DNA from: a virus
DNA length: 20,525 nucleotides
IMG/VR virus record: IMGVR_UViG_3300044516_000719
Coordinates: 1 to 20,525 of that record
Reading direction: 5' to 3' (one strand)
The stretch's first letter is position 1. Each line of letters opens with the position of its first letter. Of the stretch, positions 5,698-20,525 are shown piece by piece. The notes under the pieces were generated by a model. It worked only from the letters and a program-made list of their open reading frames with translations, searched no databases and was not told the DNA's origin. Position numbers and translations under genes: made by a program.

Positions 5698-5892
5698 GTG
5701 TGGAATGTTGGAAAGAGAATTTTTTTTCGCAAGCAATACTGCCATTTCTCTGTTGGAGATAAAGGTCAGGTGGTTGAAGTCATCCAATGTGAATGTTGCG
5801 AAGAACCTCTAGTCATATGTCGGGTGGTTGATAATAAGAACTCTAAGTTCATATGGATTGAACAGGGTTCTTTGGAGGAATTAATTCAATAG
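5698..5892 (+). CDS. Small unknown protein with a T8 run near its start
   Basis: The 64-codon frame reads as plausible protein. The segment VGDKGQVVEVIQCECCEEPL followed by ICRVVDNKN looks like a small beta-barrel (KOW or SH3-like) and carries a CECC cluster. No family is assigned. The start is a problem: the in-frame GTG at 5698 overlaps the only good SD (AAGGAG, 5693-5698). The ideally spaced start, ATG at 5705, is in the next frame and meets a run of eight T at 5720-5727. Reading the T run as nine bases (slippage, or a miscounted base) would join that ATG start to the body. The gene ends two bases into the AGGAGG of the DUF3310 gene. Confidence 0.55.
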   Translation: MWNVGKRIFFRKQYCHFSVGDKGQVVEVIQCECCEEPLVICRVVDNKNSKFIWIEQGSLEELIQ

Positions 5893-9580: not shown

Positions 9581-10143
9581 GCGATAAGATAGATGAGTTA
9601 CTCAGTGAAAACAAACACATTTGGAAAACAAAATCAGCATATTGGAGTTTCATTCGTGGTGGTTTAAGGCGTGGCTTATGGATGAGAAATCCAGTGAAGG
9701 TTGAATTTAAAAACAAATTTAGAGTGAGGATGAAAAACCCAAACCCTAAAACTGCAACTAGATTTCCTGAGATCTGGGCCTGTCCTTGTCATATTTGTGG
9801 TGGTGTATTTGCTCAGAATGAAGTTGAGGTGGATCATAAAATTGGTCATCATTCTCTAACTTGTGAAGAAGATTTAATGAATTTCTTTCATTCCATTGCA
9901 TTTGTTACAGAGAAGGAATTACAACTCGTTTGTAAACCTTGCCATAAAATTAAATCCTATGCTGAAAGAATGGAAATTTCTTTTGATGAGGCGAGGGTAA
10001 TCAAAGAGATTATCGACTTACAAAAAGAAGGAAAAGATACTGGAAAGTTATTGCAATTAGGGGTAACAAAGAGTAACATTCCTACAACGAAAGATAAACG
10101 AAGACAGCTTCTAACTAAGTTGATGTTGGAAAGTTTGTCTTAA
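9577..10143 (+). CDS. HNH endonuclease
   Basis: 188 residues with a zinc-supported HNH (beta-beta-alpha-metal) nuclease core. CHIC (C71, C74) and VCKPCHK (C119, C122) would hold the structural zinc. EVDHKIG (D86, H87) supplies the first catalytic His, and the CHKIKSYAE segment (H123 onwards) closes the motif. The basic N terminus (30-60, rich in Arg and Lys) probably contacts DNA. The TTG start overlaps the previous stop; GAGGTG upstream serves as SD. Lying between replication genes, it could be a free-standing homing-type endonuclease or a nicking or recombination nuclease used by the phage. The motif is clear; the biological role is not. Confidence 0.8.
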   Translation: MSDKIDELLSENKHIWKTKSAYWSFIRGGLRRGLWMRNPVKVEFKNKFRVRMKNPNPKTATRFPEIWACPCHICGGVFAQNEVEVDHKIGHHSLTCEEDLMNFFHSIAFVTEKELQLVCKPCHKIKSYAERMEISFDEARVIKEIIDLQKEGKDTGKLLQLGVTKSNIPTTKDKRRQLLTKLMLESLS

Positions 10144-14465: not shown

Positions 14466-14487
14466 AAGCAGGGTTTCGGCCCTGTTT
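14466..14487 (+). terminator. Hairpin between nrdA and nrdB
   Basis: AAGCAGGG (14466-14473) and CCCTGTTT (14480-14487) form 8 pairs with one G-U and a TTTCGG loop. The T-rich arm is part of the stem and no long T run follows. It probably attenuates transcription or stabilises nrdA mRNA, since nrdB begins 17 bases on and needs read-through. Confidence 0.5.
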
Positions 14488-17228: not shown

Positions 17229-17250
17229 ATAATGTTGTATTAATATCTAA

Positions 17251-17284
17251 CCTCTGATAGAATTCGTTCTATCGGGGGTTTTTT
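17251..17284 (+). terminator. Rho-independent terminator with UUCG loop
   Basis: CCTCTGATAGAA (17251-17262) pairs with TTCTATCGGGGG (17267-17278) over 12 pairs, two of them G-U, around a TTCG tetraloop. Six T (17279-17284) follow. This is the clearest intrinsic terminator in the window and separates the nucleotide-synthesis genes from the downstream Ter-type cluster. Confidence 0.9.
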
Positions 17285-17302: not shown

Positions 17303-17593
17303 ATGGTGAAATCCTATAAGATCAAAGTTAACTCTTTAATAATTGAAGAGGTGTATCATCTCTTGATGAAACTCGGTTATGAGCCTTACAGGGAGTTAGA
17401 GTTTTACAAAGAGGTTGAAGCTAACGCTTTTTATGCTGAACCTGATAGATATGGGTTGTTCTCAATGAATAGTAAAAAAGGTCATCCTGTTATTGAATAT
17501 GATAACAGTGAAGATATGAGTTTTTATAATTCTTGTGAGAATGTAGAAATCACTCTTGATCAATTGCGTGAAATGGTGAAGTCTAAATGCTAA
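17303..17593 (+). CDS. 96-residue unknown protein
   Basis: ATG at 17303 with GGAG at 17292-17295, 7-base spacing; GTG at 17306 is a possible alternative. The product begins MVKSYKIKVNSLIIEEVYHL and is acidic and Tyr-rich in the middle (YEPYRELEFYKEVEANAFY), ending ITLDQLREMVKSKC. It looks like a small alpha/beta protein. No family is recognised. It directly follows the strong terminator with no room for a separate promoter, so its expression depends on read-through. It overlaps the next gene by 7 bases. Confidence 0.6.
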   Translation: MVKSYKIKVNSLIIEEVYHLLMKLGYEPYRELEFYKEVEANAFYAEPDRYGLFSMNSKKGHPVIEYDNSEDMSFYNSCENVEITLDQLREMVKSKC

Positions 17594-17845: not shown

Positions 17846-19156
17846 ATGAAACAATCATCATTCGCTGCTAAATTATCTCAAGCAGCACCATCACCTGCAA
17901 TCATGCAGAAGACACCATTAGCCTCAAGCTTAACTAACATAGGTGAAATGGTAAATCGCTCTTCTGCATCAAATCAGGTGGCTCCAGTGAACAATTATAC
18001 ATCTGTTCGAAACGAAGACATTCGTAAGTCTTTAGAAGCAGCAGGTATGACTCAATTGGTTAATCCAAATGAAATGGAACTAACCTATGTCAATTCCGTG
18101 TTCCAAAGTAAAGGTTTTCATAAGATTGAAAACGTTACCTATGAAGCAGTGACCAACATTGGTAAGGCTGAGTTTGAAGACCTTAATCGAAAGATGAAGG
18201 AATTCACTTCTAAGATGGGTGGAGTTAATACTGCTGGCATCTTTGATCTCATTGATGAAGTTTCCAAAGGTGTTGCTGAGACAGATCTTGAGTCTATCTA
18301 CATGAAGGCTGTGAATGCTAAACCAACACTGTGGGCATTGTTCTTATCTCTGTTTGATAAAAACGCTAAGGGTCGATCTGTTCAGCAAAAACTTAAAGCT
18401 TTGGGTGATACACTAGGTGCAAATGGTAAGAGTTTGGAAGTTAAGCTTACTTCAATTGAGCAAGATTTATCCAAACAGAAACAAATGCAAGAAAAAAATG
18501 TAAAAGACCTTGAGAAATCATTTGAGATCTACTACAATTCTTTCATCGAGTTAAGAAAGCAATATGCTTTAATCGTCTACTTAGAGCATTCATATAAAGC
18601 TCAGTTAGATAAGTTTAAAGCAGACAATAGTGGTTCAACTGATTTGGTTATTTCAAAAGAACTTCAAGATTATGAAGGTCGATATCAGGATATCCAGAAC
18701 AAACGATTGATTATTCATAAATCAATGTTGCAGTTGCCAATTATTGTTCAGCAGAACACTAACTTGGTTACAGTGATTAAGACTCTTATGAAAGAGATTG
18801 ATAATACTCTGGTAAGTAGTTTCCCGTTAATTCGCGGTAACTTGCAAACTATCGGTGTTTCAATTATGACTCAGAAGGCAATGTTGGGAAATAACAACGC
18901 TAAAGAGTTAGAAAAGAATCTAGCACTAATGGCTAATCGTGTAACTGGTGATCTTGCTGTAGCAGGTGCTACGTTGTCAGCCGATCTTCGCTTACAAGAA
19001 GCTCAAACTGTTGAGACTCTGGTTGGTGGATTAAAGACATTAACTCAACGACTTGAGGCTGCTAAAGAAGAGAGTCAACAGAAAATGAATGATGCAACTG
19101 GTATTCTCACCAATGCAACTAATGAACTTAAAGATTTACTTGGAGGTAAAAATTGA
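17846..19156 (+). CDS. telA: TelA-like toxic anion resistance family protein
   Basis: 436 residues. The first 55 are polar and probably flexible. The rest is almost entirely helical with long coiled-coil stretches (RSVQQKLKALGDTLGANGKS; KQKQMQEKNVKDLEKSFEIY). The section KRLIIHKSMLQLPIIVQQNT (about 290-310), followed by IDNTLVSSFPLIRGNLQT, matches the TelA/toxic anion resistance pattern, where helices scaffold Ter-type complexes. The biochemical role of TelA proteins is not settled. ATG at 17846 with AGAGG upstream. Its stop overlaps the TTG start of the TerD gene, so the two are probably made together. Confidence 0.75.
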   Translation: MKQSSFAAKLSQAAPSPAIMQKTPLASSLTNIGEMVNRSSASNQVAPVNNYTSVRNEDIRKSLEAAGMTQLVNPNEMELTYVNSVFQSKGFHKIENVTYEAVTNIGKAEFEDLNRKMKEFTSKMGGVNTAGIFDLIDEVSKGVAETDLESIYMKAVNAKPTLWALFLSLFDKNAKGRSVQQKLKALGDTLGANGKSLEVKLTSIEQDLSKQKQMQEKNVKDLEKSFEIYYNSFIELRKQYALIVYLEHSYKAQLDKFKADNSGSTDLVISKELQDYEGRYQDIQNKRLIIHKSMLQLPIIVQQNTNLVTVIKTLMKEIDNTLVSSFPLIRGNLQTIGVSIMTQKAMLGNNNAKELEKNLALMANRVTGDLAVAGATLSADLRLQEAQTVETLVGGLKTLTQRLEAAKEESQQKMNDATGILTNATNELKDLLGGKN

Positions 19157-19767
19157 TTCAACTTAACTTAACTAAAGAAGCTGCTGGCCCGATCTCATTC
19201 TCGCTTTGCAAGATCCAGAAATACATTGTGGAATTGTACTGGGAATCACAGCATGATCTTGATGTACATGCAATTGCATTGAAGGGTGGTAAACTCACTG
19301 GTATCCAAGGTATCCTTTCAACCTACAATGGTGGTTTGGTTACTACTGCTAACCCTGCTGTGAATCATGTATCTGGTGGCAAAGAGATGTTCCAGAACAT
19401 CAATGGTAGCTTGATCCATCACGGTGACGCTCGTTCAGGTATTAGTGTAAACCAAGCACTACCAGATGAGGTGTTAACTGTGGATCTTCCTAAGTTAACT
19501 GATGGTACTGATGAGATTGGTTTCTTCATTACTACTCACCCACCATCATCTGCTAAGTTCAGTCAGGTGAATGATGCTAAACTTGTGATCAAAGATGATT
19601 CCGGTGCAACATTGTTGACTGCTAACCTAACTAACGACTTTGACTCGTTTGATATGGTACAGATGGGTAGCTTGGTATTGAACCCTGCCTCTAATGGTTG
19701 GGAATTTAACCCACATGCAACAGGCATCAACGGATCGTTCAACGACATCATTGCAATGTTTCAATAA
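19153..19767 (+). CDS. terD: TerD-family protein
   Basis: 204 residues fitting the beta-rich, calcium-binding TerD fold. YWESQHDLDVHAIAL (30-43, D35 and D37) fits the acidic Ca-binding entry motif. HHGDARSG (89-96) and LPDEVLTVDLPKL (103-115) match the central GD..G..DE block, and NGWEFNPHATGING with NDIIAMFQ ends the domain. TerD proteins belong to tellurite and general stress systems and are thought to act in membrane-linked Ca-dependent complexes. The TTG start overlaps the telA stop; GGAGG (19142-19146) is 6 bases upstream. A GNRA-loop hairpin follows. Confidence 0.85.
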   Translation: MIQLNLTKEAAGPISFSLCKIQKYIVELYWESQHDLDVHAIALKGGKLTGIQGILSTYNGGLVTTANPAVNHVSGGKEMFQNINGSLIHHGDARSGISVNQALPDEVLTVDLPKLTDGTDEIGFFITTHPPSSAKFSQVNDAKLVIKDDSGATLLTANLTNDFDSFDMVQMGSLVLNPASNGWEFNPHATGINGSFNDIIAMFQ

Positions 19768-19775
19768 TTGAGTAA

Positions 19776-19791
19776 GGGGTGGAAACACCCC
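19776..19791 (+). terminator. GAAA-loop hairpin after terD
   Basis: GGGGTG (19776-19781) pairs with CACCCC (19786-19791) around a GAAA tetraloop. No T run follows (ATTCTAAAAAG), so it may protect the telA-terD message from 3' decay or attenuate rather than fully stop transcription. The next gene begins 22 bases later. Confidence 0.5.
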
Positions 19792-19813
19792 ATTCTAAAA
19801 AGAGTTAGAGAAT

Positions 19814-20005
19814 ATGGCATTTTTAGCTTGGTTTCTTGGTGAAATTGTAATATTATTATCAGCAACACTACTGATTTTGTTATTACCAGAATATGCGGAT
19901 AGTGTTGGGTTTGCTGCTGCTTTAATTGCTACTGGTTGGATATTTGTTATTGGTTGTTTATCGTCAGCTATTGGAAAAAATAATTTTGGAGGAAATAATG
20001 ATTAG
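19814..20005 (+). CDS. Small membrane protein with two transmembrane helices
   Basis: 63 residues. Two hydrophobic segments, about residues 4-25 (WFLGEIVILLSATLLILLL) and 31-52 (VGFAAALIATGWIFVIG), are joined by a short PEYADS loop. The polar tail GKNNFGGNND follows. Clearly an inner-membrane protein by composition; no family is recognised. It sits between terD and the vWA gene and overlaps the latter by 8 bases, so it may be the membrane partner of this module. The start at ATG 19814 has only a weak ribosome-binding site (TAGAG), and translation may be low. Confidence 0.65.
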   Translation: MAFLAWFLGEIVILLSATLLILLLPEYADSVGFAAALIATGWIFVIGCLSSAIGKNNFGGNND

Positions 20006-20525
20006 TTTTGATTTAGAGAAAAGTACGGAAGCTTTACAGTTCAGTTTGGTGAAGCATAATGTTGGAAAAATTTTACCTTGTCAGGTGAATTTCACAATGG
20101 ATGTCTCTGGTAGTTTTGATGATGAACATCGTTCTGGTTACACTCAACAATTGTTAAATCGATTCGTACCTTTTGCAATGTTGTTTGATAAAGATAAAAC
20201 ACTTGGTAGTTATGTCTTTGCTTCTCGCTGTGAGCAGTTGGGTGACATCAATGAGCGTAACTATGCTGATTACATTCGCAAGTCAGTTCAGCGTAGTTCT
20301 GTGTACAACGGTGGCACAAACTATGTTCCAATCTTTGATTTGTTGATTGAGAATACTAAAGCTGAAATTGAAGCACCTGTGTCAACTGGTGGTTTCCTAT
20401 CTCGCTTGTTTGGTCGCTCAAAACCTGCTGAAACAGTGGCTACTACACCAGAAAAACATTTACATGTATTTGTGACTGACGGTGAGGCTTTTGATCAGGA
20501 TGAGGCAGCACGACATCTTGATGAT
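19998..20525 (+). CDS. von Willebrand factor A domain protein, Ter-associated (3' end missing)
   Basis: ATG at 19998 with GGAGGA at 19988-19993. The 176 visible residues cover most of a vWA domain with an intact metal-ion-dependent adhesion site: DVSGS (D35, S37, S39), GGTNY (T107), and TDGEAFD (D161). A polar insert of about 30 residues (TKAEIEAPVSTGGFLSRLFG and onward) lies between the last two motifs. This type of vWA occurs with TerD and TelA proteins in bacterial Ter operons (TerF/TerY-like). It probably binds a partner protein through the metal site. The right edge of the window cuts the gene, so its C-terminal domain, if any, is unknown. Confidence 0.8.
   Translation, partial: MISFDLEKSTEALQFSLVKHNVGKILPCQVNFTMDVSGSFDDEHRSGYTQQLLNRFVPFAMLFDKDKTLGSYVFASRCEQLGDINERNYADYIRKSVQRSSVYNGGTNYVPIFDLLIENTKAEIEAPVSTGGFLSRLFGRSKPAETVATTPEKHLHVFVTDGEAFDQDEAARHLDD

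Follow-up and report, generated by a model that had tools for sequence, protein, structure and literature searches.

The Ter systems of plasmid R478 (terZABCDEF) and Bacillus subtilis (yceCDEF, meeF) contain the TerD and TerC families and the vWA-TerF domain, R478 carrying in addition multiple TerD paralogues and TerB. Neither is known to include a homolog of the 436-aa protein described below, whose family is named TELAL in this report. Phages carry abbreviated ter operons, for which a role in superinfection competition was published in 2021 (PMC7824862), and the terC-terD-terF-telA genes of phiPsa374 followed in 2022 (PMC9796965). According to the published model TelA and TerF form sub-membrane structures, TerD acts as a sensor and TerC as the membrane responder, with competition against superinfecting phages as the proposed outcome (PMC7824862). 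Phage inhibition and colicin resistance are ascribed to R478 ter in work cited in PMC9796965.

The window analyzed here is the whole 20,525-base IMG/VR virus record IMGVR_UViG_3300044516_000719. Sixteen of its proteins are 53-85% identical to their counterparts in Acinetobacter phage vB_AciJM_313 (phage 313; 105,952 bp) and are encoded in the same order, which identifies the window, judged by sequence, as a fragment of a related and collinear phage. An Acinetobacter-type host fits, the relatives of gene 17587 in Acinetobacter phage records being consistent with that genus. The genome is of a lytic type with nucleotide-metabolism genes. Four open reading frames on the plus strand occupy the region from position 17,846 to the right edge. 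The first-pass annotation had read them as TelA, TerD, a two-helix membrane (2TM) protein and a vWA protein, forming a phage-borne Ter-type stress module, and had reported that the first pair and the last pair of reading frames overlap; order, coordinates and overlaps were all confirmed. That the set is a Ter-type module is nearly certain. In phage 313 the same order was found: a TelA-like gene (CDS_51), terD (61% identity), the 57-aa CDS_49, the vWA gene (CDS_48) and terC.

Features of the module and its surroundings in the window (percentages give identity to the phage 313 proteins)
Feature	Coordinates	Strand	Remarks
Intrinsic terminator, strong	17249..17280	+	14-bp stem, UUCG loop, T-run; stem dG -17.7
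Small ORF, 96 aa	17303..17593	+	weak phrog_7617 match, E 1e-4; missing there in phage 313
Small ORF, 82 aa	17587..17835	+	24 records matched by tblastn (lowest E 1e-10), including 21 from Acinetobacter phages, e.g. AP22 and TaPaz
TELAL, divergent TelA-type helical protein, 436 aa	17846..19156	+	54% to phage 313 CDS_51
TerD, 204 aa	19153..19767	+	TTG start overlapping the TELAL stop; PF02342 E 5e-10
Intergenic hairpin just after terD	19776..19791	+	GGGGTG-GAAA-CACCCC, no T-run; z -3.6
Two-helix membrane protein, 63 aa	19814..20005	+	two hydrophobic segments; homologous to phage 313 CDS_49 (57 aa)
vWA-TerF-like protein	19998..20525	+	full MIDAS; runs off contig end; PF10138 E 1.5e-13; 63% to phage 313 CDS_48
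Basic amphipathic motif GFLSRLFGRSK, inserted in the vWA domain	20391..20423	+	recurs in TELAL proteins

The strong terminator closes the upstream thyA unit and is the left boundary of the transcription unit of the module. In phage 313 a comparable terminator follows thyA; L005, an IMG/VR phage carrying a related module, has one after thyX, and in both phages the right boundary is a terminator after terC. The module genes sit in the nucleotide-metabolism region after thyA, away from the structural genes. Two small genes at 17303 and 17587 had been suggested as further members. They share the terminator-bounded unit, yet the former gave no match among phages, the latter has relatives in phages such as AP22 and TaPaz, and phage 313 has two exonuclease genes at this place; on these comparisons they are not conserved members of the module.

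Several further observations were made on this neighborhood. In the window, phage 313 and L005 the module lies directly 3' of a thymidylate synthase gene, and the enzyme differs, being ThyA in the window and phage 313 and ThyX in L005 (phage 313, 15904-23420; window, 17249-17280; L005, 9286-14425). Phages of Otagovirus, Caulobacter and Vibrio have genes for NAD salvage (nicotinamide phosphoribosyltransferase, NMN adenylyltransferase, PnuC) no more than about 10 kb from their Ter genes; in phage 313 the distance is about 15 kb (loci L001, L003, L004, L019 and L021, L001 being phage 313). In the annotation of phage 313 (13354-15901) the label "ribonucleotide reductase large subunit" is attached to a 348-bp gene and the 2190-bp gene is called hypothetical, as though the product names had slipped by one position. 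On the 3' side of the module of that phage (24167-26226) lie CDS_43 to CDS_40, an uninterrupted run of four proteins, each about 170 aa long and partly similar to one another, which apparently form an expanded family.

The name TelA, given to the 436-aa protein in the first-pass annotation, holds as remote homology through intermediate sequences and as a predicted fold, and does not hold in the sense of a canonical TelA with a direct Pfam match. No match to Pfam was found for the window protein at E<1, and the gathering score of the TelA model PF05816 was not reached; the same model gave no match in phage 313 at E<=10 and none in the TELAL family members tested. NCBIfam and PADLOC models did not match the window protein either, and single-sequence scans of IMG/VR returned nothing. 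The IMG/VR relatives L005 and L006 led to plasmids and then to 41 bacterial loci of the family. The clade of window, phage 313 and L005 was joined to the rest of TELAL by hhalign with a probability of 99.5%. Comparison of the TELAL profile with that of canonical TelA gave a probability of 95.9% (E 5e-9), while reversed, block-shuffled and column-shuffled controls reached at most 2.7%. This link depends on the bacterial intermediates: the three sequences of the window clade alone gave 0.6%, and a comparison of profiles built from two sequences each gave no signal, the relationship emerging only once the bacterial relatives had been found.

An AlphaFold model of TELAL built from 28 sequences had a pLDDT of 67 and a TM of about 0.4, was good over residues 50-310 and is of modest confidence; an earlier model from three sequences (pLDDT 46) was discarded. 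A Foldseek search of viral structures gave four matches at E <= 0.001. Three of these carry toxic-anion or tellurite resistance names, and at the top of the list stand TelA or tellurite resistance proteins, with E 2e-5 to 1e-4. Together, the profile match and the Foldseek matches identify the 436-aa protein, by sequence profile and modeled fold, as a distant relative of TelA that falls outside the curated family. A likeness to pore-forming toxins was also considered. None of the ClyA/HBL fold matches in the PDB was found at E<=0.001, and they were read as generic helical-bundle similarity; in L006 a Pfam match to HBL lies below threshold.

The terD gene begins with TTG inside a TTGA overlap, with a Shine-Dalgarno sequence (ggaggt) just 5' of it. 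Its product scored 39.6 bits against PF02342 (cut-off 25.3) and aligns with the solved TerD of Klebsiella (2kxt, E 1.7e-4). The acidic Ca-binding motifs attributed to it earlier are there in part. The protein retains DLD and GDxRxG...DE, but of the GDGDDE loop of 2kxt only ...PDE is left; where TerD Ca2+-binding proteins have the full acidic loop GDNRTGEGDGDDE, the window has HHGDARSGISVNQALPDE, retaining just part of it. Phage 313 and L005 also have a hairpin after terD, of differing sequence. This hairpin was rejected as a special regulatory element, similar intergenic hairpins being common in these phages. Stable stems with short loops and little or no T-run follow many of their genes (for example 14466-14487 and 19776-19791 in the window, and 5722-5739, 9598-9619 and 21702-21717 in phage 313) and are possibly mRNA processing or stability elements.

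The vWA gene starts at an ATG (19998), is preceded by a Shine-Dalgarno sequence (ggagg) and overlaps the 63-aa reading frame by 8 nt. Its product scored 51.8 bits against the vWA-TerF-like family PF10138 (cut-off 29.4), and the complete MIDAS recorded at first reading (DxSxS, T, D) is both present and conserved. A basic amphipathic motif was identified in 25 of 53 vWA proteins, 11 of 40 TELAL proteins and 2 of 506 background ORFs, counts to be read in the light of a pattern picked after seeing examples and of family members related to one another. The enrichment is suggestive of a motif shared by the two families, and a membrane-docking loop common to both would fit.

The window stops inside the vWA gene, and in both phage 313 and L005 terC directly follows that gene. 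Since the window ends there and phage 313 has terC next, a terC gene is very probably located just to the right of the edge. The TerC of phage 313 matched the Pfam TerC family (E 8e-42) and the YjbE metal-transport subfamily of NCBI (TIGR03717, 175.6 bits versus a cut-off of 134.8). TerC of the YjbE branch is predicted to be a metal transporter; the B. subtilis TerC proteins MeeF and MeeY have roles in Mn efflux and metalation (PMC10550928).

The 63-aa protein is homologous to CDS_49 of phage 313, the score of the pair being reached by 2 of 2000 shuffles which preserve the hydropathy pattern. Apart from phage 313, no phage searched has it, L005 and L006 included, and neither do the bacterial operons. 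The slot between terD and vWA is filled instead by different, non-membrane genes: a soluble 63-aa ORF in L005, a 249-aa protein in L006 and, in bacteria, a helical protein of about 330 aa which has no name and is here called X. Conservation of the 2TM protein at this position, which the first-pass annotation had expected, is thus limited to phage 313 among the relatives searched. Its suggested role as a missing membrane anchor was abandoned, because TerC adjoins vWA in both closest relatives and makes such an anchor unnecessary. The 2TM protein may instead act as a small regulator or an adaptor.

Members of the TELAL family occur on plasmids and in no fewer than 41 bacterial species, drawn from the alpha-, beta- and gamma-proteobacteria, the Chloroflexota and the Patescibacteria. 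The order TELAL-TerD-X-vWA was seen in 38-39 of the 44 bacterial and plasmid loci; TELAL and X of the plasmids are annotated as hypothetical by NCBI. Phage 313 repeats the order of the window, and so does L005, except that another gene takes the place of the small ORF. L005 has almost nothing else in common with the window, yet TELAL, TerD, vWA and TerC are all present. In trees of TerD and of vWA the proteins of the window, phage 313 and L005 group with L006 and the bacterial TELAL operons, and the sets of Otagovirus, Phapecoctavirus and Caulobacter phages fall apart from this clade (supports 98/97 and 100/99). From this congruent branching, and from the occurrence of the set in L005, it follows that the set moves as a unit. 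The module is phage-borne and co-inherited, and the genes of its relatives are clustered rather than scattered. That the window module belongs to the lineage of the TELAL operons is highly probable. The same core in four phages and in the bacterial and plasmid loci, with congruent TerD and vWA trees, refutes an association of unrelated genes by chance for TELAL, TerD and vWA, a reading with practically no probability left even though phage early regions are rich in unrelated small genes and the small ORFs vary here; the 2TM ORF may owe its place to chance.

Beyond its own phage clade, the nearest kin of the window module is the operon of bacteria and plasmids (Agrobacterium, Sphingobium, Novosphingobium, Mesorhizobium, Achromobacter, Chloroflexota), with which it shares the TELAL family, the gene order and the TerD/vWA clade. 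It differs in having the 2TM protein where these have X, and the bacterial operons usually have no adjacent TerC and often have CDF or P-type ATPase exporters beside them. The modules of Otagovirus (phiPsa374, VCM) and of Caulobacter jumbo phages (TelA-vWA-TerC-TerD) hold the same four functional classes, compactly and on one strand, but with a canonical Pfam TelA, another gene order, and TerD and vWA branching away from those of the window. In Phapecoctavirus phAPEC8 the four classes (TerC, TelA, vWA, TerD) lie within about 8 kb and are interspersed with other ORFs, again with canonical TelA and with TerD and vWA of another clade. The module is a more familiar one than the first-pass annotation suggested. 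Phage Ter modules and the idea of excluding rivals are published (PMC7824862, PMC9796965); what is new is the TELAL lineage, its bacterial and plasmid operon, the replacement of X by the 2TM protein, and the basic amphipathic motif common to vWA and TELAL. The operon TELAL-TerD-X-vWA appears to be distinct and still unnamed, with the proviso that the foundational 2012 paper on Ter systems might mention it.

Three side results concern these loci. X was considered as a TelA, which was unsupported (9% in profile comparison); it weakly resembles the N-terminal half of TELAL (78%). Near-identical operons in several beta- and gamma-proteobacterial genera (L044, L046, L047, L048, L051, L054), often with a CDF gene, are probably one recently spread metal-resistance island. 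The record "Bacteriophage sp." MT836679.1 (L020) was rejected as a phage relative because its TELAL protein is 100% identical to one on Agrobacterium plasmid NZ_CP116694.1. Its TELAL gene adjoins CDF transporter genes, and the record looks like a mislabelled plasmid fragment.

Our preferred explanation is that the phage carries a variant Ter operon whose TELAL, TerD and TerF-type vWA core is inherited together and would be completed by a YjbE-type TerC, as it is in phage 313 and L005. TELAL, as a long helical bundle, and vWA, through its MIDAS, may form a scaffold under the membrane, attached by the basic amphipathic loops; TerD would be a metal-regulated adaptor and TerC the membrane component moving a divalent, Mn2+-like metal. 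Made during infection, such a complex could stabilize the envelope and metal balance of the host and so limit rival phages, mobile elements or envelope stress. A sub-membrane assembly with TerC which protects the envelope of the infected cell is somewhat favored over its competitors taken together. That its main role is to protect the envelope or to exclude rivals has about an even chance and is the least certain part of the explanation. What the data show is the set of genes and its order, their common inheritance, their families and the TelA-like fold, whereas the complex, its attachment to the membrane and the handling of metal are inferred. The metal-related neighbors of the bacterial operons, counted below, and the motif shared by vWA and TELAL speak for the explanation. 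Weighing against it are the position of TerC outside the window, the partial loss of the acidic Ca2+ loop of TerD, the modest TELAL model, the lack of any matching PADLOC model and the bacterial operons, most of which have no adjacent TerC, so that the transporter may be an optional partner.

Two competing explanations are equally unlikely, each at about one chance in five. The module might shield the phage from abortive or envelope-acting host defences, for instance by repairing the membrane or resetting the balance of metals once such a defence is triggered; this is in keeping with the lytic-type genome and its nucleotide-metabolism genes, and phages with Ter modules also carry, in the same region or genome, NAD-salvage genes, which are proposed counter-defences (PMC7824862). 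However, chromosomes and plasmids of bacteria carry the same operon in a setting with nothing to counter, and no relation to PADLOC systems was found. Alternatively, the module could be an auxiliary cassette by which an infected host survives tellurite, metal or oxidative stress, either up to lysis or while pseudolysogeny lasts. A CDF exporter, a metal P-type ATPase or TerC was found within about 5 kb of 16 of the 44 bacterial and plasmid TELAL operons, Mesorhizobium metallidurans among them, a count which stands without a background rate and in which several loci are near copies of one mobile island. The membership of TerC in the YjbE metal-transport family points the same way. On the other hand, phage ter sets were judged too incomplete for tellurite resistance by the authors of PMC9796965, and the benefit is doubtful if the phage is strictly lytic.

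Far less probable is a part in virion assembly, with vWA and TelA as membrane-linked cofactors like the proposed MoxR-vWA pairs of other viruses: vWA co-chaperone systems with such a role have been discussed for jumbo phages and archaeal viruses (PMC7824862), but the module has no MoxR ATPase, lies after thyA rather than among structural genes, and exists as an operon in bacteria without phages.

Bacteria, plasmids and phages commonly carry Ter systems. The five-gene phage version and its four-gene bacterial and plasmid counterpart are compact enough to be cloned whole and tested for phage exclusion and metal handling. TelA gains a new branch, two unnamed families (TELAL and X) are added, and the shared motif suggests a route by which soluble Ter proteins reach the membrane. 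The unnamed operon of bacteria and plasmids is a more interesting result than the phage variant. As a tentative idea, rated improbable, TELAL-TerD-X-vWA may be an unrecognised mobile operon acting at the membrane against invading elements, which phages would have captured, exchanging X for the 2TM protein and adding TerC, to exclude their rivals.
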